Source: Pseudoflavonifractor sp. Marseille-P3106
GTDB taxonomy: Bacteria > Bacillota > Clostridia > Oscillospirales > Oscillospiraceae
DNA length: 64,000 nt
Assembly (NCBI GenBank): GCA_900169975.1
Contig: LT827126.1
Span: 434,001 to 498,000, forward strand
Direction of reading: 5' to 3'
This document shows, piece by piece, positions 37,026 to 56,537 of the stretch (positions are counted from its first letter, which is position 1; each line of letters opens with the position of its first letter). Both the position numbers and the translations under genes were made by a program. The notes beneath the pieces are model-generated. The model searched no databases. It was not told where the DNA came from and saw only the letters and a program-made list of their open reading frames with translations.

Positions 37026-37034
37026 TTTAAGAAT

Positions 37035-42495: not shown

Positions 42496-42525
42496 CGTCT
42501 GAACTCCAGGCGGGGGCGCTTCCTA
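42489..42525 (+). terminator. Terminator
   Basis: AGCGCCCCCG pairs with CGGGGGCGCT, with TTCC following; separates the surface region from leader I. Confidence 0.65.
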
Positions 42526-42538
42526 TCTCACTCATAAT

Positions 42539-42702
42539 TTGACCAGTAAAATGAAAAATGGTACAATATTATCACATTGAGGAAGTATCGAATTTCACCG
42601 TATGACGATATTTGAGGGGTTGGAGAGAGACTTGCCGCAGAACGGCTGGGAACTCATCCACCCCTTTTTCTCTAATGTCCTTCCACGCCTACATCACGAA
42701 GT
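42539..42702 (+). promoter_or_regulatory. Leader I
   Basis: TTGACC (42539-42544), 17 bp, TACAAT (42562-42567), GGAAGTAT (42581-42588). A longer branched hairpin at 42614-42665 (AGGGGTTGGA ... TCCACCCCT) with T5; no ATATATACA tract. Drives the SSB-like gene. Confidence 0.65.
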
Positions 42703-42764
42703 AAATTTTAATTATTAAACAGCGTGGATTGTAGTGTCCTGCGGGGCACAGAAAGGAGATTATC

Positions 42765-43439: not shown

Positions 43440-43445
43440 GGCACT

Positions 43446-43484
43446 TGACAAATGCGGGCACACTTTTGTGCCCGCATTTTTTAT
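43446..43484 (+). terminator. Intrinsic terminator
   Basis: AAATGCGGGCACA pairs with TGTGCCCGCATTT, then T-rich TTTTTATT. Strong. Confidence 0.8.
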
Positions 43485-43486
43485 TG

Positions 43487-43520
43487 AGGCACTTAAGTGC
43501 TAAAGAACTGAGATGCTGGA
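43487..43520 (+). repeat. Octamer array 7
   Basis: AGGCACTT, AAGTGCTA, AAGAACTG, AGATGCTG in 8-bp phase, 20 bp before the -35 of the next promoter. Confidence 0.65.
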
Positions 43521-43539
43521 TTGCGGTATCACCAAATAA

Positions 43540-43568
43540 TTGCACAATTCACTTTAAAATGGTACAAT
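43540..43568 (+). promoter_or_regulatory. Promoter for the 129-aa membrane protein
   Basis: TTGCAC (43540-43545), 17 bp, TACAAT (43563-43568) with TGG before it. No hairpin leader. Confidence 0.65.
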
Positions 43569-43597
43569 ATTTTATATTTATAAAGGAGGGCCTGCCG

Positions 43598-43987
43598 ATG
43601 AAACCTCAGACCTGTATGTTAATCTCCGGCATCGTCAACATCATTCATGCCTTGCTCTTTCTCCTCTCCATCCTTGCACTGCTCGGCATTGGAAGCCTGG
43701 GGCTAATTGCCTCTGTAGACGGTATCCATGGTCTTGTTGGTCTTACGATGCTCGTTGTTGCTGTCCCATTATTGCTTGGGCTGGCAGTCACGATTGCGGC
43801 CATCGTGCTGGCATTTAAGAGCAGGGGAGATAGGCGGCAGAATCTTATGGTAGCCTGCACTATCTGCTCTGCCGTTGGCATCTTCCTTGGCAACTGGATG
43901 ATTGGGCTGGTGGCGACCGGCTTTGCTGGTGTTGGCGTGTATCTGACTATGCGCGGACCCAGAGATTACAGCAGTGGGCCAATTTGA
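43598..43987 (+). CDS. Small multi-pass membrane protein, 129 aa
   Basis: ATG 43598 with AAAGGAGGG upstream. Three to four hydrophobic segments (IVNIIHALLFLLSILALLG; LTMLVVAVPLLLGLAVTI; VGIFLGNWMIGLVATGFAG). DUF4064-like layout is possible. Function unknown. Confidence 0.7.
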   Translation: MKPQTCMLISGIVNIIHALLFLLSILALLGIGSLGLIASVDGIHGLVGLTMLVVAVPLLLGLAVTIAAIVLAFKSRGDRRQNLMVACTICSAVGIFLGNWMIGLVATGFAGVGVYLTMRGPRDYSSGPI

Positions 43988-44122
43988 CAGGCCAGAAACC
44001 GCATGATAAGATACTTCTATCAGATAAGGAAGTATCCCAAACATATCCAACATTTTTCTAAAGACTCAAGACAGCGTATCTCATTTGTGAGGATGCGCTG
44101 TCTTTTTATATATACACAGACT
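43984..44122 (+). promoter_or_regulatory. Leader J
   Basis: TTGACA (43984-43989, overlapping the upstream stop), 17 bp, TAAGAT (44007-44012), GGAAGTAT (44028-44035). Hairpin 44069-44103 (AGACAGCGTATCTCA / TGAGGATGCGCTGTCT), T5, ATATATACACAGAC. No octamer array directly upstream. Confidence 0.75.
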
Positions 44123-44146
44123 ATAACAAAAAAGGAGAATGATTTT

Positions 44147-44965
44147 ATGCTATTCGACACGAAAATCGAGCACCGTACCGAACCAAAGAGGCCGATTCCT
44201 GAAATGTGGAAGGAATATGTTGACCTGCTGGTAGGAACGAAACGAGTTGGAGTAAAACGGCTCCTCGGCTGGCTCCAGTCCGATATGGGAAATGGCACGC
44301 TGAACTTTCTCGAAGCACCAGCTTCGACACGGTTTCATGGCAGCTACGCCGGTGGATTGTTGGAGCATTCCCTCAATGTATACAAAAGGCTGTACGCTCT
44401 TCTGGCGTTTGAACTCCATAACGAGCCTGATGAAGTCAAAAAGAGCCCTGCGGCGGAATCTATGGTAGATTCTATTACCATTGTGGCCCTGTTACACGAC
44501 CTCTGTAAGGTCGGCTTCTACAAAGAGGATTGGAGCAATAAGAAAATTTACTCCGAGAATGGCTCCAAGCAGGACAAAGGAGGACGTTTTGACTGGGTAG
44601 AGGTACACCAGTATCGCGTTCTCGATACCCATAAGTTTGGCCACGGCGCAGCGTCCATAGAGATTGCGGAACGGTTTATGGGCATCAATGGTTTGACAGA
44701 AGAAGAAAAATATGCTATCCGCTATCATATGGGCGACTTTTCCAATGAGCGTGAGACAGGAGATGTCTATAATCGCTATCCGTTGGCTACTTTGCTGCAC
44801 ATGGCAGATATCGCCGCAACCTACCTCGATGAACGTGAGTGTGATGATTCCGGCGACCTATTCTGGGCAAACCTTAACGCATTTGCCCGTCCAGTCAAAA
44901 AAGAGCCTGCAGACAATAACGGCCAGGGAGGGAACAGCGATGGACAAGCCACTGAATCCACCTAA
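44147..44965 (+). CDS. HD-domain protein, YhaM-like, 272 aa
   Basis: ATG 44147 with AAAAGGAGAA upstream. HD-superfamily metal ligands appear in GGLLEHSLNVY, ALLHDLCKVGFY (H116-D117), FGHGAASIEIAERF, IRYHMGDF and HMADIAATY. Order and spacing resemble the C-terminal HD domain of YhaM 3'-5' exoribonuclease, without its OB domain. It could act on RNA or nucleotides; the substrate is unknown. Confidence 0.7.
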   Translation: MLFDTKIEHRTEPKRPIPEMWKEYVDLLVGTKRVGVKRLLGWLQSDMGNGTLNFLEAPASTRFHGSYAGGLLEHSLNVYKRLYALLAFELHNEPDEVKKSPAAESMVDSITIVALLHDLCKVGFYKEDWSNKKIYSENGSKQDKGGRFDWVEVHQYRVLDTHKFGHGAASIEIAERFMGINGLTEEEKYAIRYHMGDFSNERETGDVYNRYPLATLLHMADIAATYLDERECDDSGDLFWANLNAFARPVKKEPADNNGQGGNSDGQATEST

Positions 44966-45194
44966 TATCGATTTGACGGAGGCAGAGCGCCGTTTTGGCT
45001 TTGTGAATGCAAAGTCCAAAACCTATATCCTTCTGGAACTGCCATCTCGACTTTCCGGCATTTACATTGCCAAGGCGATGGAGGCAGACAGTACTTCCGA
45101 TAGCAGCCCAGCCACGGTCTATCTGGTCTGGGACAACATGGATGATTTCGATGCCGGTAAGGAGCCATCGCAAATTCTGACCAAAATTCACTGA
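44940..45194 (+). CDS. Small hypothetical protein, 84 aa
   Basis: ATG overlaps the end of the HD gene, GGGAGGG upstream. Alpha/beta, acidic. No family recognised. Confidence 0.6.
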   Translation: MDKPLNPPNIDLTEAERRFGFVNAKSKTYILLELPSRLSGIYIAKAMEADSTSDSSPATVYLVWDNMDDFDAGKEPSQILTKIH

Positions 45195-45199
45195 CCCAA

Positions 45200-45236
45200 A
45201 TGGCCGCCCTCTATAGGGCGGCCATTTTCTTTTCCA
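45200..45236 (+). terminator. Intrinsic terminator
   Basis: ATGGCCGCCCT pairs with AGGGCGGCCAT, then TTTCTTTT. Strong. Confidence 0.8.
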
Positions 45237-45277
45237 TGCCATGATAGTCCAGTGTAAAATTGGCAAATTTTTCAGAT

Positions 45278-45306
45278 TTGACTTCAATGTCATGATGTGG
45301 TATAAT
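45278..45306 (+). promoter_or_regulatory. Promoter P1 of the tRNA region
   Basis: TTGACT (45278-45283), 17 bp, TATAAT (45301-45306), TGG before the -10. It drives a transcript without coding potential. Confidence 0.7.
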
Positions 45307-45312
45307 ATATTT

Positions 45313-45630
45313 AACTCAGATAGGTTCGTCTGAGTGAACTAATCTCCTTTAGTTACATAGGGTATGTCGGTGCCCTATCGTAACGCAATTTGTTGTATAT
45401 GATGCCATTGAGCACTTGAATTTGGGCTGCTTTGGGGAAGGGTGCGGCAGCTCATTCAAATCTCGGCAGAAGCTGGGTGAATCAGCCCCTCCAGCCGCAG
45501 CAGGCAGAAGGGTTCACGGGTTTAAATCCCGTTGTCGGGACCACAGGAGGTTTACTCCACCTCCTGAACGTTTGTGTATATAGGGAAGCGGGGCAGTTCG
45601 TATGGACTGCTCCGTTTCCTTTTGTTCATT
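45313..45630 (+). ncRNA. Candidate non-coding RNA ending in a tRNA-like domain and two terminators
   Basis: Starting after P1 there are stem-loops CTCAGA/TCTGAG, TAGGG...CCCTA and GGGCTGC...GCAGCTC, then the tRNA-like element 45462-45543, a CAGGAGG/CCTCCTG stem and a strong terminator (GGAAGCGGGGCAGT / ACTGCTCCGTTTCC, TTTT). No open frame with a ribosome site is seen. No RNA family recognised. Confidence 0.5.
45462..45543 (+). tRNA. tRNA-like element, identity uncertain
   Basis: CTCGGCA pairs with TGTCGGG, discriminator A and encoded CCA. D-stem GCTG/CAGC and T-stem ACGGG/CCCGT with a 7-nt loop (TTTAAAT) are clear, and a short variable arm (GAA/TTC) is possible. The anticodon stem (CCTCC/GCAGG) has a mismatch and the loop lacks U33, so a CCG anticodon is only formal. 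An acceptor extended to 8 bp is possible. Confidence 0.5.
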
Positions 45631-45637
45631 CAATTTA

Positions 45638-45666
45638 TTGACCAATTTAATAATATATGGTATAAT
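45638..45666 (+). promoter_or_regulatory. Promoter P2 of the tRNA region
   Basis: TTGACC (45638-45643), 17 bp, TATAAT (45661-45666). A small hairpin (AAAGCGC / GCGCTTT) follows at 45680-45712. Confidence 0.7.
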
Positions 45667-45727
45667 ATCTATTGAAGAACAAAGCGCCTATTCACATGCA
45701 AAACGCGCTTTGAGCCGCGCTCATTTA

Positions 45728-45756
45728 TTGACTAATATAATGATTTGTGGTATAAT
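45728..45756 (+). promoter_or_regulatory. Promoter P3 of the tRNA region
   Basis: TTGACT (45728-45733), 17 bp, TATAAT (45751-45756). The third strong promoter within 500 bp; probably the main start for the tRNA cluster. Confidence 0.7.
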
Positions 45757-45825
45757 ATTACTTGAGGTCACGTGGCTCTATCTGCTATCTAGCGGAAATT
45801 CACTAAAGTAAGGAGAGTGATAGGA

Positions 45826-45906
45826 ATGGCATATAGCCAGGAGGCAACAGACCTTGACGAATTCATTTTCGGCACTGACTGCACCACAGTTGAAAGCTCC
45901 AGATAA
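45826..45906 (+). CDS. Possible 26-aa peptide before tRNA-Ser
   Basis: ATG 45826 has AAGGAGAG about 10 nt upstream and reads MAYSQEATDLDEFIFG..., stopping 24 nt before tRNA-Ser. Acidic. The good ribosome site argues that it is translated; function unknown. Confidence 0.45.
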   Translation: MAYSQEATDLDEFIFGTDCTTVESSR

Positions 45907-45930
45907 CTGGCCATGCACAAGGGCACATAC

Positions 45931-46019
45931 GAAGAGGTGGCCGAGTGGATGAAGGCGGCGGTCCTGAAAACCGCTGGGTGTAAAAAGCCCCGTGGGTTCG
46001 AACCCCACTCTCTTCGCCA
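45931..46019 (+). tRNA. tRNA-Ser(UGA)
   Basis: Class II tRNA of 89 nt: acceptor GAAGAGG/TCTCTTC, anticodon loop CCTGAAA (TGA), long variable arm, T-loop TTCGAAC, discriminator G, encoded CCA. Confidence 0.92.
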
Positions 46020-46328
46020 GAGCAGGCGGACGATACCCCCTGCTTCCCGTATCTTCCTCCTTTCGGAAGCACGGGCTTCATCCAGCCCTTTGCATACAGC
46101 CAGCCCACTATCCGGGCCGGGGCTAACCACTGGGCTTTTTCAAAAAAACAAAGATACATGCGGCTAAGTGTCTTTTGCCACGAGGCGATAGCGGCAGGCA
46201 GTTCCTGTGCGGCGAAGCATCTTGGGTGTTCTGCGGGGAGTAGTGGCCATATCAATCCGCTGAGGCCGTTTTTATACAACGAGTTAAAAAAAGAAAAATT
46301 CTTTACAGCGAAAGGAAGTGTATGTGCT

Positions 46329-46868
46329 TTGGAGAAAATCACCCGTACTGTGACGGCGACAACCGTCCAGTATGCAGAGGCCATTGTAGAGAATGGCGTC
46401 CCCACCTTCCGTCCCTGCGGGGATGAGGTAATTCCCGGCGAGATTACGGACCAGGTGAATGCACTCCAGTATCTCAGGAAGAAGTATGGCGTCGACCGCT
46501 CTTTCGTTGTTACCGGCATGACGACCGATACAAAGAAATATGTGATGGACCTCGCTACCTTCATCGCCACAGCAACGCCCGTTGCTGTCGTTGCGAAGCA
46601 GGATGCGCCGACTGACAGCGAAGCGGATGCTGAACCTGCTGATGAAACAGGTGCAAACGCTGATACGGTCAACCCGGCTACACCTGCCGCCCCCGTCATC
46701 AATGCACCCACAAATAATCCTCTGCCAGGCAGTCAGGCCGGTGTGTATCCGGGCAGTCCTGTCACACCTCCAGCAGGAACCGCCCCGTTTGGTGCGCCTC
46801 CTACTGCGGAGGCCCCCAATCAGGCACCTTACAACGGCTCCTATCCTGGCTTCCAGGCTCCACAGTGA
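46329..46868 (+). CDS. Hypothetical protein with Pro-rich tail, 179 aa
   Basis: TTG 46329 lies 10 nt after AAAGGAAG. The frame is open for 57 codons upstream, but no ribosome site is there and the region (46020-46310) contains terminator-like stems. The N-terminal 85 residues are globular (ITRTVTATTVQYAEAIVENG), the rest acidic and then Pro/Ala/Gly-rich. Not recognised. Confidence 0.6.
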   Translation: MEKITRTVTATTVQYAEAIVENGVPTFRPCGDEVIPGEITDQVNALQYLRKKYGVDRSFVVTGMTTDTKKYVMDLATFIATATPVAVVAKQDAPTDSEADAEPADETGANADTVNPATPAAPVINAPTNNPLPGSQAGVYPGSPVTPPAGTAPFGAPPTAEAPNQAPYNGSYPGFQAPQ

Positions 46869-46912
46869 GCACTCATCCGCTGGGTGGGGGTATACCCACC
46901 TGGCGGACATAC

Positions 46913-46988
46913 GCTGGTGTAGCTCAGCAGGCAGAGCGACGCACTCGTAATGCGTAGGTCGACGGTTCAATTCCGTCCTCCAGCTCCA
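46913..46988 (+). tRNA. tRNA-Thr(CGU)
   Basis: 76 nt; D-arm AGCTCAGCAGGCAGAGC, anticodon loop CTCGTAA (CGT), T-arm GGTTCAATTCC, encoded CCA. One acceptor mismatch (T-T at pair 6). Confidence 0.88.
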
Positions 46989-47067
46989 AAAATGAATGGA
47001 TAGAGTCACATGCCACGGCACCGGGGCCATGGAAGGCCAAAGCACGAAGTAACGAGGAGATTTTGAC

Positions 47068-47442
47068 ATGGATACGATTTGGAGTGACAGAAAGCGGCAC
47101 TTCGGACTGCCCATCAGTTTCACAAAGTACAGTCTGAGTGAAGACCGTCTTTTCCGAGAGACAGGACTTCTAAATCTCAACGAGGAGGAAGTCCTGCTGT
47201 ATCGAGTCCGGGATGTCTCCTTGTCTCGTTCTTTGTGGCAGCGCATCTTCGGCGTGGGTACAATTACCGTTCATTCGTCTGATAAGACCTCTCCGACCTT
47301 GGAGGTCATCAATGTGAAGGATTCCAAATCTGTAAAGGAACTTATCTTCACAAATGTTGAAAAAGCAAAAGAAGAGCGCCGCATGAGAGCGACAGAGCTT
47401 CTGGATGATGGCGCTGAAGACAGCAATTTTGAAGTGGAGTGA
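47068..47442 (+). CDS. Bacterial PH-domain protein, 124 aa
   Basis: The segment TKYSLSEDRLFRETGLLN ... VRDVSLSRSLWQRIFGVGTI is the strand-helix pattern of bPH_2 (DUF304) domains. The last 40 residues are a charged helix. Soluble; ligand unknown. AACGAGGAG upstream, and it overlaps the next gene's GTG. Confidence 0.7.
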   Translation: MDTIWSDRKRHFGLPISFTKYSLSEDRLFRETGLLNLNEEEVLLYRVRDVSLSRSLWQRIFGVGTITVHSSDKTSPTLEVINVKDSKSVKELIFTNVEKAKEERRMRATELLDDGAEDSNFEVE

Positions 47443-47894
47443 CAACCCGCACGGATACGATACAATTTCCCGTTGTCCCCCTCGATTTTGACGAGGTGGC
47501 GCAGATACTTGATAATATCGTAGATAATGATTTTCCTGAGGAGATGTATCGCGGCCTGACTGGTGGCATCTACTTGCTACCGGAAGAGAAGCACAATGCC
47601 CGGATTCCGTCAAACCGCTATTATGTTCTTGGAGAGTATCGGCGCAACCGCATCATGGGAAACTGCATCTTCGTTTACTACGGTTCCTTTCAGAAACTAT
47701 ACCCGAGGGCTTCCAGAGAACAGGCGATTACCATTTTGCATGGGACCATCGGCCACGAGCTGCGGCACCATATGGAGGGCCGAGCAGGGGAGAGAGGTCT
47801 GGAAGTCGAAGATGAAATTTTTGTACAGCGGGCGCTCCGGCGCTTAGGTGTCTGGCCAGGGAAGGAGGCGTCAAAGTGTGCATCAACAAATTAA
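47439..47894 (+). CDS. Zincin-like protein with HExxH, 151 aa
   Basis: GTG overlaps the PH-domain stop. TILHGTIGHELRHHMEG holds HELRH (106-110), the zinc-protease motif, with a downstream acidic EVEDEIF that could supply the third ligand. Small cytoplasmic metallopeptidase fold, as found on phages and ICEs. Its end overlaps the next small gene. Target unknown. Confidence 0.7.
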   Translation: MTTRTDTIQFPVVPLDFDEVAQILDNIVDNDFPEEMYRGLTGGIYLLPEEKHNARIPSNRYYVLGEYRRNRIMGNCIFVYYGSFQKLYPRASREQAITILHGTIGHELRHHMEGRAGERGLEVEDEIFVQRALRRLGVWPGKEASKCASTN

Positions 47895-48043
47895 AAAAGA
47901 ATAGCAACTGTGCGACCAGCAAGGGGGTCGGAAAGACCCAGGCATTCTCGGCTGGTATCGCCAGGATGCAAAAGACCGGATATAAGTTTGTGGTCATCGA
48001 CAGCAAGGAATTCGAGAAAGAGTCAAAATCTCTGCTGGTATAG
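47876..48043 (+). CDS. Small protein, 55 aa, ending inside tRNA-Thr(UGU)
   Basis: GTG 47876 with GAAGGAGGCG upstream. Basic (Lys-rich N-terminus, then KTGYKFVVIDSKEFEKE). Its last codons and TAG stop (48041-48043) are the first 10 nt of tRNA-Thr, so tRNA 5' processing would remove the stop codon from the mRNA. Confidence 0.6.
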   Translation: MCINKLKKNSNCATSKGVGKTQAFSAGIARMQKTGYKFVVIDSKEFEKESKSLLV

Positions 48044-48109
48044 CTCAGTTGGCAGAGCACGTGATTTGTAATCTCGGGGTCGTGGGTTCGAGCCCCTCTA
48101 CCAGCTCCA
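48034..48109 (+). tRNA. tRNA-Thr(UGU)
   Basis: 76 nt; perfect acceptor GCTGGTA/TACCAGC, anticodon loop TTTGTAA (TGT), T-arm GGTTCGAGCCC, discriminator T, encoded CCA. One mismatch in the anticodon stem. Confidence 0.9.
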
Positions 48110-48238
48110 TGGCACATATATTGTGCCTGTGTACCATTTCTCCCATTCCTCTTTTCCCTTTTCTATTCTCACATGCCATTCGCACCGAGCACAATCACTA
48201 CGGCCGCCATGGGGCAGGGTGCAGCGGCCGCTTCATAT

Positions 48239-48313
48239 TGGGGTGTCGCCAAGTGGTAAGGCAAGGGACTTTGACTCCCTCATTCGCTGGTTCGAGTCCA
48301 GCCATCCCAGCCA
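48239..48313 (+). tRNA. tRNA-Gln(UUG)
   Basis: 75 nt; begins TGGGGTGTCGCCAAGTGG as bacterial tRNA-Gln does, anticodon loop CTTTGAC (TTG), acceptor 3' strand CATCCCA, G73, encoded CCA. The 129 nt before it hold only hairpins (GGCACATATATTGTGCC; CGGCCGC...GCGGCCG). Confidence 0.92.
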
Positions 48314-48337
48314 TCTCCTACTAGGAGGAAATCACAA

Positions 48338-48931
48338 ATGCAGGCAGAGGTCATCCAAACAGATGTAGGATTGTCCCCGCAATACGAAATACGGCGTAAT
48401 AGCAACCTAATTGGTCACGCAGAGATTTCCCATCTGGTTCCAAGTATGTCTCCCTGCAATTTGGAACTGCTTGACCAACACTTGTCTCTGATGTCCGACT
48501 TGTCGTATCAGAGCCAACAGGCTGAATCCGGCTTTCTGAGCCGCCTCCTGCGGTTTGGAGCGCCCATGGAGCAATCCTATAAGGTCACGAGGAACACACG
48601 CTCCGTTGGACGTATCTACCCCTTCAAGGAGCAGTACCGGCCAGGCAAGAGGGTTACATGCCGTGCAATCGAGCTGAATTGCCTGCACTACACCGTTTAT
48701 CACGTTGGCCATGGCAAGGATGGAACGAACTATCCTATCTATGAGGGAGAACACCAGATTGCTCTGGTGAAAAAACCTGCCATGGTGCGTAATGGGTATG
48801 ACACCTATGGCATCGTGGCTCTGGATGATGACTCTCTTCTCATCGCGGTGCTCTTCGCTTTGTATGAGGATATCCGCGAGCATACTTACAACAATCTGCA
48901 CGCGGGTTCAGCAGTGCGGGTTACTGCATAA
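48338..48931 (+). CDS. Hypothetical protein, possibly tubby/LURP-one-like, 197 aa
   Basis: ATG with TAGGAGGAAAT upstream. Beta-rich; the C-terminal part (IYEGEHQIALVKKPAM ... LLIAVLFALYEDIREH) recalls the barrel-plus-helix end of LURP-one/tubby-type domains. Loose similarity only. Confidence 0.5.
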   Translation: MQAEVIQTDVGLSPQYEIRRNSNLIGHAEISHLVPSMSPCNLELLDQHLSLMSDLSYQSQQAESGFLSRLLRFGAPMEQSYKVTRNTRSVGRIYPFKEQYRPGKRVTCRAIELNCLHYTVYHVGHGKDGTNYPIYEGEHQIALVKKPAMVRNGYDTYGIVALDDDSLLIAVLFALYEDIREHTYNNLHAGSAVRVTA

Positions 48932-48997
48932 TTAACGACCAATCCATATCTTCTGAAACGAGATGACCCTGATTTTGAGGCCAGAGCAACTTAATGC

Positions 48998-49065
48998 GTC
49001 CCGGTAGTTCAATAGAAGAACATCCATTCCATTGGAGTATGCTGGTTCGAATCCAGCCAGGGACA
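48998..49065 (+). tRNA. tRNA-Gly-like element A (shortened)
   Basis: 68 nt; GTCCCGG/CAGGGAC acceptor, Gly-type D-arm TAGTTCAATAGAAGAAC, perfect T-arm GCTGG-TTCGAAT-CCAGC, but a 4-bp anticodon stem TCCA/TGGA with a 6-nt loop (TTCCAT, formal TCC) and a short variable loop. No encoded CCA. A homologue lies at 50870; both are followed by the same structured RNA. Confidence 0.5.
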
Positions 49066-49099
49066 GCTTACACTGTCCGCCAGACAGTGTGTTTCATGT

Positions 49100-49236
49100 T
49101 TGGGTTGACTGTGAGCCTGTGCCCATTCTGGGCCCCCGCTATTCATCGCAGTCTGGACGAACAAAGTAGGGACGGGTCTACCTCAGTAATGAGGTGGTCA
49201 AAGATGGCCCGATGCCCGGCAGGTGGGGCCGGGTCA
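49100..49236 (+). ncRNA. Conserved structured RNA, copy A
   Basis: Shares with copy B the blocks CTGTGAGCC, CTGGACGAACAAAGTAGGG, TCTACCTC/GAGGTGG, AAAGATGGCCCG and loop AGGTGGG. Stems covary between copies: GACTG/CAGTC here, CGGGTC/GGCCCG, and CCCGGC/GCCGGG closing AGGTGGG. It ends a few nt before tRNA-Leu(CAA). No family recognised. Confidence 0.7.
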
Positions 49237-49239
49237 CAC

Positions 49240-49325
49240 GCCAAGATGGTGGAATGGCAGACACGGCAGGCTCAAACCCTGCTGTCGGCAGCGGCATGAG
49301 GGTTCGAGTCCCTCTCTTGGCACCA
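49240..49325 (+). tRNA. tRNA-Leu(CAA)
   Basis: Class II, 86 nt; acceptor GCCAAGA/TCTTGGC, anticodon loop CTCAAAC (CAA), T-loop TTCGAGT, A73, encoded CCA. Confidence 0.92.
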
Positions 49326-49328
49326 TAC

Positions 49329-49415
49329 GCCGGAGTGGCGGAATTGGCAGACGCCCGGGACTTAAAATCCCGTGGGAACACTCCCGTGCCGGTTCGAGCC
49401 CGGTCTCCGGCACCA
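49329..49415 (+). tRNA. tRNA-Leu(UAA)
   Basis: Class II, 87 nt; acceptor GCCGGAG/CTCCGGC, anticodon loop CTTAAAA (TAA), A73, encoded CCA. Three nt after the previous tRNA. Confidence 0.92.
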
Positions 49416-49431
49416 TTCTTTCTCAATATAT

Positions 49432-49507
49432 CGCGGGGTAGAGCAGTCGGCAGCTCGCAAGTCTCATACGCTTGAGGCCGGTGGTTCGAGTCCACCCCCC
49501 GCACCCA
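49432..49507 (+). tRNA. Initiator-like tRNA-Met(CAU), copy 1
   Basis: 76 nt; CGCGGGG start with C1-A72 mismatch, the bacterial initiator hallmark; D-arm GAGC...GCTC, anticodon loop CTCATAC. The anticodon stem CAAGT/GCTTG lacks the three G-C pairs of initiators, and position 73 is C. Encoded CCA. Confidence 0.8.
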
Positions 49508-49708
49508 ATGCCGGATTTGTACCGGCTGATGTGGGCGTGGCAGATTCCCCACAAAGAATGACAATGCTCGCTGAAAACTGCCGTACCCGATGCGTCGGGG
49601 CCAGTATGACCGGAAGACACCCGGGGCTATATCTTTGCGGAGAATAGTTGCTGGCTGGTGTGACAATCTAAGCGGGAATTGCACCGAAAATAGTAGGGAG
49701 GGAGACGT
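49508..49708 (+). other. Intergenic stretch without gene
   Basis: About 200 nt between tRNA-Met and the kinase gene. Stem-loops GCCGG...CCGGC and GTGGG...CCCAC and the kinase ribosome site are visible; no open frame with a ribosome site. It may be part of the long tRNA precursor. Confidence 0.4.
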
Positions 49709-50155
49709 ATTGCTACTCTATACCTAATGGTCGGCATCCCAGGGGCAGGGAAAACCACTTGGGCCAAAGAGCACCCTCAGTATGTATATGTGGGTTCTGA
49801 CGAGATTCGGAAAGAACTTTTTGGCAAAGAACTGACCGTGCGTGGATACCGGAAAGTCCATCGTCTGATGATGCAGCGAGCAATCTCCCACCTTGAATCT
49901 GGACATGATGTTGTAATGGATTCAGCCCATGTCAGCATCCACGCTCGGAAGAAAGTCCTAAAAGGGCTTCCGTCCGGCATTGATGTGGTCGCGGTACATA
50001 TTGATACGGCTGTCCCGCAGGCCCTCAAGAATAACCATATGCGGGAACGGCATGTGCCGCGTATTGGCATCATGTTTCTCGGCAAAAAGTTAGAAGTACC
50101 GTCGGCAGGAGAGGGTTTTACGAAGGTCCTACATATAACAAAAGACTTCACTTGA
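49709..50155 (+). CDS. P-loop polynucleotide-kinase-like protein with probable ATT start, 148 aa
   Basis: The frame reads ATLYLMVGIPGAGKTTWAKE from an ATT at 49709, placed after GGGAGGGAGACGT. ATG 49727 has no ribosome site and would remove most of the first beta strand. Walker A is GIPGAGKT; GSDEIRKELFG and VVMDSAHVSIHARKKVL match the AAA-type kinase domain of T4 PnkP-like RNA/DNA 5'-kinases. Located inside a tRNA cluster, it could repair cleaved tRNA; no ligase is seen. Confidence 0.7.
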   Translation: MATLYLMVGIPGAGKTTWAKEHPQYVYVGSDEIRKELFGKELTVRGYRKVHRLMMQRAISHLESGHDVVMDSAHVSIHARKKVLKGLPSGIDVVAVHIDTAVPQALKNNHMRERHVPRIGIMFLGKKLEVPSAGEGFTKVLHITKDFT

Positions 50156-50166
50156 CTGTTTGAAAC

Positions 50167-50255
50167 GCAGAAGTGGTGGAATTGGTAGACACGCCAGCTT
50201 GAGGTGCTGGTGAGCCATTGGGCTCTTACGAGTTTGCGTCCTACTTTCCGCACCA
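50167..50255 (+). tRNA. tRNA-Leu(GAG), divergent T-arm
   Basis: Class II, 89 nt; D-arm TGGTGGAATTGGTAGACAC, anticodon loop TTGAGGT (GAG), variable arm GAGCC...GGCTC, A73, CCA encoded. The T-loop reads TTGCGTC in place of TTCRANN and the T-stem pairs poorly. Confidence 0.75.
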
Positions 50256-50260
50256 GATAC

Positions 50261-50337
50261 GGGCCTTTAGCTCAGTTGGTTAGAGCAGGCGGCTCATAAC
50301 CGCCCGGTCCTGGGTTCGAACCCCCGAAGGCCCACCA
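50261..50337 (+). tRNA. tRNA(CAU), elongator Met or Ile2
   Basis: 77 nt; acceptor GGGCCTT/AAGGCCC, anticodon loop CTCATAA, A73, encoded CCA. The sequence around GGCTCATAACC resembles Gram-positive tRNA-Ile2, whose C34 is changed to lysidine; identity cannot be settled by eye. Confidence 0.88.
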
Positions 50338-50369
50338 GGTAAAATACGAAACTTCGAGGAGGTCATGTT

Positions 50370-50822
50370 GTGCTCAAGAAAGTCCTGTGCATATCCGCCG
50401 CCGCGCTTGCACTGACCGCTTCACTGACAGCCTGCAACACGTATTTAGAGAAGTCCGGCACATACGATGTTGAGACAGGCGACCGCGTGAAAATCACGGT
50501 CGATGCCAAGGTGGGCTATGATATTACGCTGGAGGCACCGTTCGTCATCTCTAAGGACGACGAGACAATTCTGAACGGCACGTTCCTGTACAGCGAATAT
50601 CTGGAAGAGTATAAGAGCGCCTATGAGGCTGAACCCACCGCATCCCTGGTAGATGAAGGGGAAAAGGATGGGAACGAGTATTTCTGCTATGCTGTCGGAG
50701 ATGAGTACGACTACTTCGTGAAAGTAGGCGACTCCAATACCGCAGTCATCTTGTCTTCAGCAGCAAGCGAGGAGGAAGCAAGCGCGGCGTTCAACTCCAC
50801 CGTTATCTCACTAGAGGAATAA
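50370..50822 (+). CDS. Lipoprotein, 150 aa
   Basis: GTG start with CGAGGAGGTC upstream. Signal peptide with lipobox LTAC (Cys about residue 22). Mature domain acidic, alpha/beta (YDITLEAPFVIS ... SNTAVILSSAASEEEA), similar to other small clostridial lipoproteins. A protein gene set among tRNAs. Role unknown. Confidence 0.75.
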   Translation: MLKKVLCISAAALALTASLTACNTYLEKSGTYDVETGDRVKITVDAKVGYDITLEAPFVISKDDETILNGTFLYSEYLEEYKSAYEAEPTASLVDEGEKDGNEYFCYAVGDEYDYFVKVGDSNTAVILSSAASEEEASAAFNSTVISLEE

Positions 50823-50869
50823 CCATTTTGGGGAAGACCCTCATCAGGTATGCCGGTCTCCCCACATAT

Positions 50870-50953
50870 GTCCCTGTAGTTTAATGGCAGAACGGTTTGC
50901 CAACGTGCAGCAATGCCGACAGACATATGCCGGTTCGAATCCGGCCGGGGACA
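50870..50953 (+). tRNA. tRNA-Gly-like element B (enlarged middle)
   Basis: 84 nt; GTCCCTG/CGGGGAC acceptor, D-arm TAGTTTAATGGCAGAAC typical of tRNA-Gly, T-arm GCCGG-TTCGAAT-CCGGC. The middle is a stem TTGC/GCAA with a 9-nt loop plus an 11-nt linker instead of a normal anticodon arm. No encoded CCA. Confidence 0.5.
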
Positions 50954-50988
50954 TGCGCGTTCCATCGTTTTAGATGTACGCATTAGCT

Positions 50989-51140
50989 ATGGGTTGGCTG
51001 TGAGCCCACTCTGCGCGCAGGAATGCCGCAGGGACTCCGATAACCATATCGCAGCCTGGACGAACAAAGTAGGGACGGGCCTACCTCCCCCTGTGAGGTG
51101 GCAAAAGATGGCCCGGGTCACGGTAGGTGGGACCGTGTGT
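50989..51140 (+). ncRNA. Conserved structured RNA, copy B
   Basis: Homologous to 49100-49236. Covarying stems: GGCTG/CAGCC, CGGGCC/GGCCCG, and CACGGT/ACCGTG around the invariant loop AGGTGGG. CTGGACGAACAAAGTAGGG is identical in both. It ends just before an initiator-like tRNA-Met. Confidence 0.7.
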
Positions 51141-51144
51141 ATAT

Positions 51145-51219
51145 CGCGGAGTAGAGCAGTGGTAGCTCGCCTGGTTCATACCCAGGAGGCCGCCGGTTCG
51201 AGTCCGGCCTCCGCAACCA
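51145..51219 (+). tRNA. Initiator-like tRNA-Met(CAU), copy 2
   Basis: 75 nt; CGCGGAG/CTCCGCA with C1-A72 mismatch, A73, encoded CCA; D-arm GAGC...GCTC; anticodon loop TTCATAC with stem CCTGG/CCAGG. Confidence 0.85.
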
Positions 51220-51308
51220 GCCCCTTTTGGGGCATTCTCTCCCCCTCATTATATGGCGGCCTGGTCTTTGCACCTGCTTTCAACCTCCCCACCAGGCCGC
51301 CGCTCCTT

Positions 51309-51384
51309 GGGGACATAGCTCAGTTGGCAGAGCGATGGCTTTGCAAGCCATAGGCCGTGGGTTCGAGCCCCACTGTCTCCACCA
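51309..51384 (+). tRNA. tRNA-Ala(UGC)
   Basis: 76 nt; acceptor GGGGACA/TGTCTCC contains the G3-U70 pair that specifies alanine; anticodon loop TTTGCAA (TGC); encoded CCA. Confidence 0.93.
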
Positions 51385-51850
51385 TGGCACCAAAGGTGCC
51401 GCAATTCCGAGCTGACTGGGAGTTTGCTTCACCTAAGCGGAGCCTCTAGCCTCTGACCTCCGTTGCTGCACTCTTCGGACAATGGGGCCTATGGTCAACC
51501 GCCCATGGCACTGGCAGATGACCGGCACGGTTTGGAAGCATCCTTGCGCGGGTCTCTCCCCGCGCCGCAGCCTGATGACTGCACATAAGTCGGGCGAAAT
51601 CAAAGGAGCCGCCGTGGGTGTCGGCAAGTACGAAATTGGCATCTACAGCGTATTCCGTGTGGCGGAATCAGACGCAGCCAAACTGACCGGGGTGCAACGG
51701 AAAGGGCGGTGTCAGTGAAAAACTGGCGTGGGTGGTATGAGCAAGGTAGATGGGCTTGTCCCATTGCGACGTCAGTCGCATTGCTCAAAATCTACTCCAC
51801 GGAATTGCTGTCACTAGGAGGCCATCCGGTTTGCCGGGTGGCCCCCTTTT
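51385..51850 (+). ncRNA. Candidate structured non-coding region after the tRNA array
   Basis: About 465 nt without a gene that has a ribosome site. Stem-loops include GGCACC/GGTGCC, GCGCGGG/CCCGCGC, a CAGATGACCGGCAC... region and a final terminator GGCCATCCGG / CCGGGTGGCC with CCCCTTTT (51821-51850). It ends the tRNA transcript. Comparable in setting to large phage RNAs of the GOLLD/ROOL kind, but I cannot match it. Confidence 0.4.
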
Positions 51851-51856
51851 CAAAAA

Positions 51857-51885
51857 TTGCGTAATATATTGCTATATGGTATAAT
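51857..51885 (+). promoter_or_regulatory. Promoter
   Basis: TTGCGT (51857-51862), 17 bp, TATAAT (51880-51885) with TGG before it. Confidence 0.65.
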
Positions 51886-51904
51886 ATATCAAGAGGTGAT
51901 GACT

Positions 51905-52507
51905 GTGATTGACCTACTCAAAAAGGCAACGGAAAACCAGCGTTTCCGCATTATCGCCTACATTGCTGGGGGCGCAATCGCAGTAATTCTGCTCTGTTTC
52001 CTCATCATTTCCATCATAAACGGAGGGGAGAAGATTACTGACGATATTGTAGTGACTGCGTACTCTGAGGATGAAATTCAAAATACAGAAGAGTCCGGCG
52101 TCTTCTGCAAATCCATTCTCTCCACGAAAATTGACTCTGATGTCACAGGTGGCAAAACAGTCGTGTTGACCTCATCCAGGGAGTATGAGGACTACCTTGA
52201 CCAATATGATGATATTTCAGTCGTGGAGCCAGAACAGGTTCCCATTGTGGATGACTGGTTCTCCGCTGGGTACTACGCAATCATCGTATCTACCGACCAG
52301 TATGAGCTGCCAGTCAATCTGACCGCTTCAGCGAAATATGTTGATGCCGACGGGAATATAAAAATCCTGGTCGGACCGTCGGGCATCAACCCTGAATTCG
52401 TTTATAGCAAAGAACTTGATTCCTGTAAGCAGGCATCCGTGGTCATTTTCCTTGACCAGGAACTTATCACGGACGCTCCAAGTATCACAATCATGTTTAT
52501 ACAGTAA
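51905..52507 (+). CDS. Membrane-anchored hypothetical protein, 200 aa
   Basis: GTG 51905 is preferred (AAGAGGTG about 8 nt upstream) over ATG 51899. One transmembrane helix near 18-41 (IIAYIAGGAIAVILLCFLII), then an extracytoplasmic acidic domain. No family recognised. Confidence 0.65.
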   Translation: MIDLLKKATENQRFRIIAYIAGGAIAVILLCFLIISIINGGEKITDDIVVTAYSEDEIQNTEESGVFCKSILSTKIDSDVTGGKTVVLTSSREYEDYLDQYDDISVVEPEQVPIVDDWFSAGYYAIIVSTDQYELPVNLTASAKYVDADGNIKILVGPSGINPEFVYSKELDSCKQASVVIFLDQELITDAPSITIMFIQ

Positions 52508-52534
52508 GCCACATTGACGAGGGAGGGGATTCTT

Positions 52535-52996
52535 GTGGCAAGAGGTGAGTGTATCTTAGAGCCTGGCCCGAATAGCTGGCTGAATTTATCCACCAGTCTT
52601 CTATCCAAGGAAGGGAAGGCCATCGTGACATCCGACCCAGACATACAGTGCGGCACCATTGCAGCACTGCAGGCACTTGAGCCGACCAATATGGACGAAT
52701 ATCCGTTTTACTTTTCAGACGACGAAAAGGAGAGCGATATTGGGATGGCTACCCTGTCCATGTGTATCCGGGAAAATCCCTATGCAACCATGGCGGAACT
52801 CGTGGCCAGGTATTCTGACGCCAGGAACGTGCCATATGCGCATGTGGCCACGGTACTGAATGAAATCCGCCGGAGCACCGGATTCACCATGTACCTCCGC
52901 AATCGGGGAGACAATACATTCCAGGCAGTTCAGTGGACCCCGGCAAGAGTCCCGTCAAATATGACACTGCTCCCCCCGCCAAAGCGCCGGGCATGA
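52535..52996 (+). CDS. Hypothetical protein, 153 aa
   Basis: GTG 52535 after GGGAGGGGA. The C-terminal half (PYATMAELVARYSDARNVPYAHVATVLNEI ...) looks like a small helix-turn-helix or winged-helix unit; DNA binding is possible. Confidence 0.55.
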   Translation: MARGECILEPGPNSWLNLSTSLLSKEGKAIVTSDPDIQCGTIAALQALEPTNMDEYPFYFSDDEKESDIGMATLSMCIRENPYATMAELVARYSDARNVPYAHVATVLNEIRRSTGFTMYLRNRGDNTFQAVQWTPARVPSNMTLLPPPKRRA

Positions 52997-53012
52997 GATA
53001 GGGGGAGGCACC

Positions 53013-53258
53013 ATGAGGCTACCACTTGCCCTGCTGAAGGGTGCAATACTCGGCCTGGTCTTGATTGGGGCCGTGTATTTCCTGCAGGAATGCTATGGCC
53101 CAATCGCGGATACGCTGACCCATATCCCAGACATTATCTTCCGTGGTTATCAACCTCAAGCGTTGGATGACAGTTTTTCAGCGCTTTTCTTTTCGTGGAT
53201 AGCAACGGAGGGAATCCTTATGATGCTGTTGCCAAAAAGCGGCGGAGGCGAAGAATGA
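53013..53258 (+). CDS. Small two-pass membrane protein, 81 aa
   Basis: ATG with GGGGGAGG upstream. Hydrophobic helices near 7-26 and 58-74. ATGA overlap with the next gene. Function unknown. Confidence 0.65.
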   Translation: MRLPLALLKGAILGLVLIGAVYFLQECYGPIADTLTHIPDIIFRGYQPQALDDSFSALFFSWIATEGILMMLLPKSGGGEE

Positions 53259-53536
53259 GGTCGGATTCTAGGATGTCATATAAACAAGTCATATCAGGAA
53301 AAACCTCCACATATCATATGGACGGAGGTGAGCCAGTGATAGTCAAACAACCTATAGACCAATCAGAACTGGAGGCCGCTGTCCTACATAATATTTTTGA
53401 TAATATGCTTAAGGCTGGCCTCATTACCGAAGCTCAACATGAAAAAGCCTGCCGCATGATTGATGGTGCAGATGATTTAACACTGGAAAAGGGAATTGAC
53501 GCTCAGGCAGAGCCTGACCTCAATGCCTTTGATTAA
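53255..53536 (+). CDS. Hypothetical protein next to the recombinase, 93 aa
   Basis: ATG 53255 with GGAGGCG upstream. The C-terminal half (LEAAVLHNIFDNMLKAGLITEAQHEKA) resembles SHOCT-type short helices seen beside large serine recombinases. It may assist or direct recombination; inference from position only. Confidence 0.6.
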   Translation: MRSDSRMSYKQVISGKTSTYHMDGGEPVIVKQPIDQSELEAAVLHNIFDNMLKAGLITEAQHEKACRMIDGADDLTLEKGIDAQAEPDLNAFD

Positions 53537-53538
53537 CC

Positions 53539-53573
53539 CTTTCCTTCTGGGAAAGGGTTCTTTTTTATCAAAT
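53539..53573 (+). terminator. Intrinsic terminator
   Basis: AACCCTTTCC pairs with GGAAAGGGTT, then CTTTTTT. Strong. Confidence 0.8.
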
Positions 53574-53613
53574 TAACGATTATCTCAGAGATGAGTACTC
53601 AACTTTGAAGGCA

Positions 53614-53641
53614 TTGAACAATTTCGCGTTCGTGGTATAAT
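53614..53641 (+). promoter_or_regulatory. Promoter of the recombinase
   Basis: TTGAAC (53614-53619), 16 bp, TATAAT (53636-53641). It looks like sigma-A; I see no clear sporulation-sigma (SigE/SigK) -10. GGGGGAGAGTAT follows as ribosome site region. Confidence 0.5.
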
Positions 53642-53685
53642 TATTACATATGCACACTGTTAGAACAAGGGGGAGAGTATAGCAG

Positions 53686-55620
53686 ATGGCGAAACGAAAA
53701 ACGCCTCCGTTAAGGCGGCCAGGATTTCACAAATATGATATCAGCCAAATTCGAAATGAGGATTTAGACCGATACATGATTCAAACCCTGCTGAAAGATG
53801 GTTGGACCATTTATGACCTACCGTTAAGGGTTGCTTGCTATTCCAGGGTATCCACAGATGAAGAAATGCAGCTTCACTCGCTAAATGCTCAAGTAAAATA
53901 CTTCCGGGAGTATGTAAATAACGCTCCGAATTGGACACTTGTAGGGACATACTTTGATGAAGGTATAACTGGAACATCTACAAAAAAGCGCGAAAGTTTT
54001 AACAGAATGATATTAGATGCGGAAGAAAGGAAGTTTAATCTTATTCTGACAAAGGAGGTGTCCCGATTTGCCAGAAATTTATTGGACAGTATTGCTTATA
54101 CAAGGAAACTATTAGAAAAGGGCATCGCGGTCTACTTCCTTTCAGACGGTATTATGACATTCAACGAAGACAGTGAGCTACGACTCGGCATCATGGCCAG
54201 TGTAGCGCAGGAAGAGAGCCGGAAGACCAGTTCCAGAGTCAAATTTGGCTTTCGCCGGAGCATTGAAAATGGTAGTGTTCTTGGCTCAAATCGGATTTAT
54301 GGATACGATAAGGACAACGGACGCTTAGTGATAAATGAAAAAGAAGCCGAGATGGTCCGCAAAGCATTTGACCTCTATGTCAACCATGGACTAGGAATCC
54401 GCCGGGTCGGCGTTGAACTTACAAACCAGGGCTATCGAAATTTTGCCGGAGGCCCAATTACATCAGCCACGGTTAAGAACATTCTTCGGAATCCAAAGTA
54501 TAAGGGCTACTACTGTGGTGGAAAGACGGAAAAGGTTAATTTTCTTTCGAGTGAAATAAAACAAATTCCGCGAGACGAATGGGTCATGTATAAAGACGAA
54601 ACCGGAGAAATCGTCCCTGCACTTGTCGATGAAGAAATATGGGATAAAGCACAAAAAATTCTGGATTCAAAGACGGCACAATACATGAGTTTAAATCCAA
54701 ATGGGACGAAACCACGTGCTTCCTATAAGGGAATGTACCCTTACAGCAGCAAAATCATATGTGAAGAGCATAATACGACTTTCGTGCGCAGGCTGTACAA
54801 GTATACCAAGAAAGACGGAACAAAGGTTGAGAGAGAAATATGGCGTTGTCTGTACCAAGTTCAAAGCGGAAATCACTTCTGCAGTATGCCTAAGCTCTAT
54901 TCCTCAGACCTAGATGAAATTATGACCCAAGTATTGGATTATGTAATCAAAGATAAAGAGGCCATATTAAAAAGGGCCGAGGAAATATACAAAGCCATTC
55001 TCAATGAACCAAGGGCTTTTGAAAAAGAGATTGCAGCTCAAGAGAAAAAAATCAAATCTATTGAAGCAAAAAAAGATAAGCTACTTGATTTGGTAGTCCA
55101 CGGACGGATTTCTGATGCCGAGTTCCAGAAGCGCAATGATTCCCTCAACGTAGAGCTATCAGAAGCCATGGATGAAAAGAAACGCCTTGTCGATGAACAG
55201 ACTAAAGCCAACAGTAATTCAATGCCGACCCCCGAACGAATTCGGGAAGACATCGAATATATTGTCCAATTTAAAGAGGGCTTCAGTCCTGGATTGGTAG
55301 ATAAGGTGCTTGACCATATCGTCATCCAGAAGGGAAGCACGAATGAAAAGATAAACCTCTTGATTTACCTGCATGGGAATCCAAACCCATACAAAGGTCA
55401 AATCGGCGGGAATACGGGCGGAGACGGAACCGCTCAAAATCCCGGAAATGGTTGCGGCTCAGGGGATATCGTATTTTCTGCTAAATGCTATCAACCAGAG
55501 GCATCGTGGTCACCACCGACGGGACCATCACCGACATTCCCCGGGAGGACTATCTGGAGGCTGAGGCGCGGGTCATCACCGAGCTCAAGGCCCTGGGAAA
55601 GCCGTTCCTGGTCCTGCTGA
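53686..55620 (+). CDS. Large serine recombinase (integrase/excisionase of the element), 644 aa
   Basis: Catalytic N-terminal domain with CYSRVSTDEE (nucleophile Ser56, Arg54), then EVSRFARN and the SRVKFGFRRSIENG helix, a recombinase domain (GPITSATVKNILRNPKYKG), a zinc ribbon (IICEEHN ... HFC) and a coiled coil (EKEIAAQEKKIKSIEAKKDK). Large serine recombinases join attP and attB through short cores. It reads AT-richer than its neighbours. The element-encoded part ends about codon 602; the last 40 codons are host spoIVA DNA read in another frame. Confidence 0.92.
   Translation: MAKRKTPPLRRPGFHKYDISQIRNEDLDRYMIQTLLKDGWTIYDLPLRVACYSRVSTDEEMQLHSLNAQVKYFREYVNNAPNWTLVGTYFDEGITGTSTKKRESFNRMILDAEERKFNLILTKEVSRFARNLLDSIAYTRKLLEKGIAVYFLSDGIMTFNEDSELRLGIMASVAQEESRKTSSRVKFGFRRSIENGSVLGSNRIYGYDKDNGRLVINEKEAEMVRKAFDLYVNHGLGIRRVGVELTNQGYRNFAGGPITSATVKNILRNPKYKGYYCGGKTEKVNFLSSEIKQIPRDEWVMYKDETGEIVPALVDEEIWDKAQKILDSKTAQYMSLNPNGTKPRASYKGMYPYSSKIICEEHNTTFVRRLYKYTKKDGTKVEREIWRCLYQVQSGNHFCSMPKLYSSDLDEIMTQVLDYVIKDKEAILKRAEEIYKAILNEPRAFEKEIAAQEKKIKSIEAKKDKLLDLVVHGRISDAEFQKRNDSLNVELSEAMDEKKRLVDEQTKANSNSMPTPERIREDIEYIVQFKEGFSPGLVDKVLDHIVIQKGSTNEKINLLIYLHGNPNPYKGQIGGNTGGDGTAQNPGNGCGSGDIVFSAKCYQPEASWSPPTGPSPTFPGRTIWRLRRGSSPSSRPWESRSWSC
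55490..55515 (+). other. Element-chromosome junction (attachment site) inside spoIVA
   Basis: Left of about 55,495 the sequence is element DNA. From GGCATCGTGGTCACCACC on, the spoIVA frame (GIVVTTDGTITDI) is continuous and GC-rich. The exact crossover cannot be fixed without the other end or an uninterrupted relative. Confidence 0.7.
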
Positions 55621-56537
55621 ACTCCGCCTATCCCCAGTCCGACCGGGCCAAAGCCATCCAGGCCGACATCATGGACCGCTATGACGTCACCTGCATGCGC
55701 TGTAACTGCCTGGAGCTGGACGAGGACGACGTCACCTCCATCATCAAGGGAGTGCTCTACGAGTTCCCCGTCAAAGAGCTGGATCTCTTCCTGCCCCCCT
55801 GGGTGGACGCGCTGCCCTACGACCACCCCATCAAAAACGAACTCTATGCCGCCATCCGGCAGGGCGCGGCCGGGATGCGCCGCATCCGGGACGTGGAGGG
55901 AGCCATGGCCGCCATCGGCGGCTGCGAGAGCGTCAGCAGCGCCCGGGTGACCTCCATCAACCTGGGCGCGGGTCTGGCCGCCGCCGCTCTGGAGCTGCCC
56001 CGCAGTCTCTTCTACGACACCATTTCCGCCCAGTCCGGCTTCACCATCTCGGACGACGGAGACCTGATGAGCCTGCTCACCGAGCTGGCGGGGGTGAAAA
56101 AGGAGTACGACAAGGTCTCCGACGCCCTTCAGCAGGTCCGGGAGACGGGCTACGGCATCGTGGCTCCCGGAGCGGAGGAGATGAAGCTGGAGGAGCCGGA
56201 GATCGTCAAGCAGGGGGGGCGCTACGGAGTCCGGCTGAAGGCATCCGCCCCCAGCATCCACATGATCCGGGCCGACATCGAGACCGAGGTCTCGCCCATC
56301 GTGGGCAGCGAAAAGCAGTCGGAGGAGATGGTGGGCTTCCTGCTCCAAGAGTTTGAGGGGGACACCGCCAAAATCTGGGACTCCAACATCTTCGGCAAGT
56401 CCTTCCATGAGCTGGTGGGGGAGGACCTGAACGCCAAACTCAAGCGCATGCCCGACGACGCCCGGGATAAGTTCCGGGAGACTCTCCAGAGGGTCATCAA
56501 CGAGGGATCGGGCGGCCTCATCTGCATCATACTGTGA
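55497..56537 (+). pseudogene. spoIVA: SpoIVA, 3' two thirds (split by the element)
   Basis: The frame GIVVTTDGTITDIPREDYLEAEARV ... EGSGGLICIIL matches SpoIVA from about residue 145 to the end (B. subtilis SpoIVA has 492 aa and ends GGLIAIIL). SpoIVA is the ATPase that polymerises on the forespore to base the coat. The missing 5' part carries the Walker A loop. The fragment's only in-frame ATG (55485) lacks a ribosome site, so it is silent unless the element excises and rejoins the gene. Confidence 0.9.

Follow-up and report, generated by a model that had tools for sequence, protein, structure and literature searches.

A 252-kb conjugative-type element dividing spoIVA in a Pseudoflavonifractor genome: a probable skin-like sporulation-gene intervening element

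Introduction

In the window studied here (the whole stretch of 64,000 nucleotides that was analysed, C20:434001-498000, from a Pseudoflavonifractor draft genome) the sporulation gene spoIVA appears as a frame without a beginning, directly behind the gene of a large serine recombinase. The question raised by this locus is whether spoIVA has been destroyed by a mobile element or interrupted by one that could leave the chromosome during sporulation, as an earlier note made from the sequence had proposed. The precedent is the skin element in sigK (in B. subtilis and in C. difficile), where a serine recombinase, a split mother-cell sporulation gene and in-frame rejoining are combined, as they appear to be here by sequence. 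SP-beta in spsM, vfbin in spoVFB, vrin in spoVR, gin in gerE and yin in yabG are sporulation-gene intervening elements of the same kind, and the 28.6-kb gin had already provided proof that phage genes are dispensable. The relevant reports name sigK, spsM, spoVFB, spoVR, gerE and yabG as targets, and nearly all of the intervened sporulation genes are described there as mother-cell genes (PMC4191935, PMC5595907, PMC6957869, PMC10747680).

To the earlier note spoIVA was not known as a described target, and the accessible parts of the open-licence literature searched (subscription papers being mostly outside this scope) likewise name other genes and do not present spoIVA, spoIIID or spoIIIAC as genes that such an element interrupts. 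Within that literature the target, the size of the element and the wider pattern reported below appear to be new, while the principle is the known skin principle.

Split spoIVA and the limits of the element

The ORF at 55485-56537 matches the SpoIVA_ATPase family from profile position 145 only and continues into complete middle and C-terminal domains (Pfam), in agreement with the earlier description of a frame that begins abruptly near 55,497 and runs to a normal C-terminus. A profile search of the host genome (3.12 Mb in 20 contigs, 99% complete) returned two complementary SpoIVA_ATPase pieces on the same contig and strand: the 3' piece (C20:489491-489769, profile 145-237) and, where the note had expected it at the far end of the element, a 5' piece (C20:236830-237279, profile 1-150). 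The same model search of this nearly complete genome found no further SpoIVA copy; an intact gene elsewhere is what the note would have taken as evidence against an intervening element.

The element between the two parts of spoIVA extends from C20:237271 (left end) to C20:489500 and measures 252,229 bp, so that the earlier figure of more than 55 kb was correct as a minimum but covered only the right-hand part lying in the window, with ~197 kb more beyond its left edge (Table 1). The fetched flanks have a GC content of 0.657 and 0.623 and the element one of 0.514, bearing out the lower-GC DNA that had been noticed to the left of the gene, ending in a large serine recombinase. A run of 1167 N is located within the element (C20:290741-291907; L006).

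Table 1. Features of the spoIVA-intervening element and its right junction (window positions).
Feature	Position	Strand	Details
Right-hand 55.5 kb of the 252,229-bp spoIVA-intervening element	1..55499	+	left end outside the window, C20:237271; lower GC
VirD4/TraG-like coupling protein	16732..18963	+	TraG-D_C 3.1e-9, T4SS-DNA_transf 1.8e-7
RecD2-like helicase	34736..36961	+	with two upstream neighbours and the recombinase, order kept in the G053 spoIIIAC element
12 predicted tRNA genes, one of undefined identity	45931..51384	+	tRNA prediction (L015 13931-19384)
Small 93-aa ORF just upstream of the recombinase	53255..53536	+	Pfam SHOCT_2 E 0.044, below its cut-off
Sigma-A-like promoter before the recombinase	53614..53641	+	TTGAAC-16-TATAAT, 10/12 matches
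Large serine recombinase, right junction	53686..55620	+	644 aa; Pfam Resolvase 2.1e-27, Recombinase 6.6e-19
attR	55470..55531	.	GG crossover dinucleotide at 55500-55501; reconstructed attP 21/25 symmetric
spoIVA 3' part, codons 148-492	55500..56537	+	345 codons of the 492-codon joined ORF

Both ends of the element (C20:237271 and C20:489500) share a GG dinucleotide, and joining at this dinucleotide yields a spoIVA of 492 codons, in frame and without a stop. The seam of the joined gene, HSTIGIVVTTDG, is the same in three congeners (L017, L020, L022), with VI in place of VV in L018. The attP site rebuilt from the two ends is palindromic, the arm positions counted as symmetric around GG being far above those of random end pairs inside the element (mean 6.2, maximum 17 in 198,069 pairs); for attB the count is 14. 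All such controls were computed without N stretches, and each of the other elements discussed below had a control of its own. The proposed comparison with uninterrupted relatives gave a consistent picture: eight of the nine congeners in the family sample have a single uninterrupted full-length SpoIVA match (G012 has none), and in 5/5 congeners tested the alignments of the two flanks abut exactly at the crossover. Two halves of a sporulation gene in the same orientation at opposite ends of one element, together with an element-borne recombinase and att sites whose joining restores the frame exactly, are, at the level of sequence, the hallmarks of a skin-type element. The interpretation as a sporulation-gene intervening element in spoIVA is thus supported by the complementary halves, the att sites, the in-frame join and the comparative evidence.

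A draft of 20 contigs with 3.2% contamination could in principle contain a chimera, the contig of an element having been wrongly joined to spoIVA by the assembly. This explanation is strongly disfavored, as two independent junctions agree on dinucleotide, frame and palindrome, the flanks are those of the congeners, and the same architecture is present in one-contig genomes (G578, G524, G786; see below).

Cargo of the element

Among the 43 ORFs of the element that were scanned against protein families (266 were picked), VirB4- and VirD4-like proteins scored above the Pfam cut-offs, and the NCBIfam conjugation models remained below theirs; the type IV secretion ATPase and the coupling protein of an integrative conjugative element are therefore both present. 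No relaxase was found in the scanned set. It includes a Rep3 initiator, ParA, a topoisomerase and NAD ligase as well as RecG-like, RecJ-like and RecD2-like proteins, NrdD and a sigma-70 factor. Genes for type I-C Cas5 and Cas8 are located near the left end (L004:3314-5852), and the whole element carries 24 predicted tRNA genes, one of undefined identity (those of the window in Table 1, the others in L005, L006 and L012). Capsid, terminase and tail structural genes were absent from the 43 scanned ORFs, where phage-type domains were limited to a holin-family and a phage tail lysozyme domain, and neither the recombinase nor VirB4 had a relative on viral contigs, in scans sensitive to close relatives only.

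In the plasmid collection, VirB4 has its best-covered relatives on gut conjugative megaplasmids of Subdoligranulum (OY725878.1, 247.5 kb; 43% identity) and Vescimonas (NZ_AP023417.1, 142 kb; 42% identity). These are plasmid records, whereas the 252-kb element is integrated in spoIVA, and the likeness is known from VirB4. Judging by its gene content, the element resembles a conjugative megaplasmid in integrated form or a giant integrative conjugative element.

The junction recombinase and its candidate partner

The recombinase of the window is without a close relative in the 400 family genomes (at most 50% identity, over 328 residues). Its frame runs over the crossover and ends inside spoIVA DNA, which contributes the last ~39 codons in a different frame; the C-terminus would differ by form, the circle encoding 658 aa by a frame open across attP and the integrated form the shorter version of Table 1. 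Of 15 elements examined, the recombinase frame passes the crossover in 13 and ends before it in G420 and G671. In all five genomes of the genus g139 (see below) the circle tail has 36 codons, and selection on it is weak.

Seven sigma-A-like sites were counted in the recombinase region versus 5.7 ± 2.5 in shuffles. The small ORF just upstream of the recombinase is no more than a candidate recombination directionality factor. Short ORFs sharing its end pattern occur in the window and in 10 of the 12 one-contig elements at the second spoIVA site described below, their similarity to SHOCT being weak at best.

A reader may see in these data an ordinary integrative conjugative element that entered spoIVA by a loss-of-function accident, leaving a host that no longer sporulates. 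Such a reading would accommodate the conjugative cargo, the promoter search, in which no consistent sigma-E site was found, and the fact that among the genomes examined the host's is the single one split at codon 148. We consider it unlikely. Both spoIVA halves remain intact and keep the frame. Their dN/dS relative to seven congeners is low (0.027/0.59 and 0.043/0.52 versus G008), but this proves little and cannot decide between the readings because the insertion may be recent. Further evidence comes from other loci.

A second spoIVA site in other Clostridia

In other genomes, relatives of the recombinase (about 39-48% identical) immediately precede the final ~91-94 spoIVA codons. A survey with the ATPase domain is blind to splits at codon ~402, and a full-length SpoIVA model was required. 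Using this model, a match was obtained in 332 of 400 family genomes, seven of which have spoIVA interrupted close to codon 402 and a recombinase next to the 3' piece, the two pieces being on one contig (G103, G257, G316) or on two (G374, G156, G046, G192). In a survey of the class (393 genomes of 90% completeness or more, of which 288 gave a match), 19 genomes with extra or short matches were examined further, and 10 of them are split near the same codon: eight on one contig (G578, G524, G612, G717, G786, G455, G420, G671) and two on two contigs (G715, G482), where the contig ends before any recombinase. A named collection added three cases (L083 with both halves, L084 and L106 with the 3' half). 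These counts are lower bounds, the genomes examined further not including G636 (three matches) and the class genomes with a single shortened match.

Twelve loci have the recombinase and the two halves of the gene on a single contig, with elements of 5.2-46 kb. Their attP sites have 17-22 of 25 positions symmetric around CA, which gave the highest symmetry among 11 offsets. The observed symmetry was reached by none of 100,000 random pairs per element in 9/12 loci, by 2 in G316 and G671, and by 28 in the AT-rich L083. AT had been considered as the crossover of this site and was replaced by CA on account of its poor symmetry. Overall, these loci indicate that spoIVA is a recurrent target of related recombinases.

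Apparent splits were discounted where the breaks fall at contig ends (G179, G220, G378, G037, G330, and contig-end pieces in G051 and G400), where frameshifts seem to be the cause (G060, G508), or where a full-length copy is present too (G058, G240, G282, G306, G385, G412). Also left out of the count were seven family genomes (G110, G314, G217, G133, G309, G117, G095) and, in the class, G558, G730 and G519 as well as four drafts (G682, G760, G782, G652), most of them resembling contig-end breaks by their coordinates. In the four drafts the SpoIVA pieces meet near codons 400-407, with contig ends confirmed for G682; such breaks might reflect a mixture of integrated and excised forms or, equally possibly, plain assembly breaks.

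Selection on the separated halves

In the genus g139, six of the eight listed genomes with a SpoIVA match are split. For the five with a small element (5.4-6.3 kb), the detached 3' half shows a dN/dS of 0-0.014 (dS 0.2-1.05), compared with 0.02-0.055 for the 5' half and 0.05-0.09 for the recombinase. Because this fragment would be usable only after rejoining, and such conservation would not be expected otherwise, the split-off 3' half in g139 must remain in use, and is likely rejoined. Selection this strong, in a genus that includes a reported spore-former, speaks against a loss-of-function accident.

The GH48 enzyme of G524 is identical over 619/619 residues to PDB 1f9o (Cel48F), presumably a C. 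cellulolyticum protein, and with the strain presumed to be H10 we take G524 to be C. cellulolyticum H10. This strain reportedly showed 35.7% heat survival in a sporulation assay (PMC3936895), and PMC11076785 describes SpoIVA as required for heat-resistant spores in C. sporogenes. According to a 2012 survey (PMC3533761), spoIVA of C. cellulolyticum H10 was among the genes omitted from annotation, and a spoIVA frameshift is mentioned for L. sphaericus C3-41; the words 'interrupted' and 'skin' are absent from the main text of that survey. C. cellulolyticum could serve as a laboratory model. Skin-type excision is made likely by comparison with other genomes: spoIVA is split in a reported spore-former, the 3' half cut off there is under purifying selection, and sporulation genes have been targeted repeatedly.

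Excision could also be sporadic rather than developmental, by active lysogeny or in the course of conjugation, with spores formed by the minority of cells that have lost the element. For the C. botulinum yabG element the excised form was detected at all time points (PMC10747680), and the breaks at codons 400-407 would fit mixed forms as they would fit assembly breaks. Under this scenario the spores would lose the element, however, and its presence in six of the eight listed g139 genomes would then be hard to explain, which makes sporadic excision quite improbable.

spoIIID and spoIIIAC as further targets

The host genome harbors a second divided sporulation gene. Its spoIIID is in two pieces, which match profile positions 3-41 and 34-79 and are separated by 9.1 kb on C13. 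The intervening element (C13:115217-124587, L154; 9.1 kb) has its 511-aa serine recombinase adjoining the 3' piece and also encodes a Mob/Pre protein, a DNA methylase and an XcyI-like restriction enzyme. Joining at CA restores the SpoIIID protein, and the attP symmetry of 18/25 was reached by 0 of 100,000 random pairs. This parallel split of spoIIID in the host is a further argument against an accident in spoIVA. Among the 114 family genomes with a match (140 searched), spoIIID is in two pieces around position 40 in 13, including the host genome. In all 10 of these loci that were fetched, the host's among them, a recombinase adjoins the 3' piece, and the other nine enzymes are 43-85% identical to that of the host; at least 9 of the 139 other family genomes thus contain a recombinase-split spoIIID.

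In G053, another genome of the family, a recombinase lies against the 3' end of a putative spoIIIAC, followed by SpoIIIAC/AD-family and SpoIIIAE genes, and the 5' half was located about 126 kb away (G053:C40:2734-129706; E 1.7e-8) with a B. subtilis probe. The element in between is matched by 20/264 ORFs of the 252-kb element, including VirB4 and VirD4, and the gene order of the end from RecD2 to the recombinase is the same in both. The best in-frame attP of G053 has 15/25 symmetric positions, a value reached by 38 of 98,146 random pairs, and the junction is less exact because of this low symmetry and its occurrence in random pairs. The G053 element (L026, L174, L167-L173) also contains 7 predicted tRNA genes, the shared conjugation genes and a run of 1140 N.

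The relationships of the recombinases were examined in a tree of 72 rows. Those of the second spoIVA site group together in 16/18 rows (93/90, not starred), with L106 and G192 outside, and the ten from spoIIID loci make up a separate clade (100/100). The recombinase of the window pairs with that of G053 (100/100), a position at which long branches meet. For 43/72 rows neither spoIVA nor spoIIID was found alongside; among them the target was worked out for G053 alone.

Proposed mechanism

We propose that spoIVA of the host is split by a developmentally excised, conjugative-type intervening element that integrated itself at codon 148 and would be removed in a skin-like manner (estimated probability about 0.82). 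A conjugative-plasmid-like element of 252 kb would use its own large serine recombinase for this integration. By analogy with the C. difficile skin element, where a sigma-A promoter drives the recombinase constitutively and mother-cell timing comes from a directionality factor of 72 aa (PMC5025042), the recombinase would be made constitutively and the directionality factor only in the sporulating mother cell. Together they would recombine attL and attR at GG in that cell, releasing the element as a circle and rejoining spoIVA in frame, and the forespore would retain the element and pass it on through the spore. Excision, its timing, its restriction to the mother cell and the directionality factor are inferred.

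Since the sigma-E targets listed for C. difficile include spoIVA (PMC5025042), excision would be placed at the sigma-E stage and, if spoIVA acts as it does there, would have to be early. With spoIIID of the host also split, any SpoIIID-dependent factor would become active only after spoIIID is rejoined.

A broader scheme can be entertained tentatively, at odds somewhat short of even. Sporulation genes active in the mother cell, namely spoIVA with its two sites, spoIIID and spoIIIAC, might be standing docking sites in Clostridia for a wide class of serine-recombinase elements, ranging from 2.5-kb cassettes to 252-kb conjugative megaelements, with host differentiation as the excision signal. In many of these elements the recombinase gene crosses attP, and integration would swap its C-terminal tail (for another tail or a truncation in the chromosome), which might act as a built-in directionality switch. 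The switch is speculative, as the selection on the circle tail is weak.

Comparison with skin and implications

The present case differs from skin in targeting spoIVA (in C. difficile a sigma-E gene), in its 252 kb with conjugative and plasmid genes, and in being known from sequence alone. If the proposed interpretation is true, programmed gene rearrangement in sporulation would extend to spoIVA, spoIIID and spoIIIAC, all of which act before sigK. Two splits would be possible in one genome, raising the question of order (is spoIIID rejoined before spoIVA?), and the findings suggest that the DNA being rearranged may be a quarter-megabase element of the conjugative type. Genome-based prediction of spore-forming capacity may err accordingly, where essential genes seem broken and are merely interrupted.

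Further features of the smaller elements

An attP arm motif, ACAAACAGAAGT, stands directly before the recombinase gene at 11 or 12 of its 12 bases in 8 of the 17 loci of the second spoIVA site and at 10/12 in two more. It was absent from this position in the other 7 loci and in the window; in one of the seven, G524, the recombinase start follows close behind the upstream gene. Shuffled stretches reach 10 or 11 of the 12 bases, and on these two grounds the motif was rejected as a recombinase operator. Where it does precede the recombinase start, the recombinase may repress its own gene. By eye, the ~6-kb spoIVA elements of G578, G524, G717 and G786 (L131, L132, L134, L135) each seem to contain an AgrB/AgrD-like pair, and three of the four a dockerin-like gene as well.
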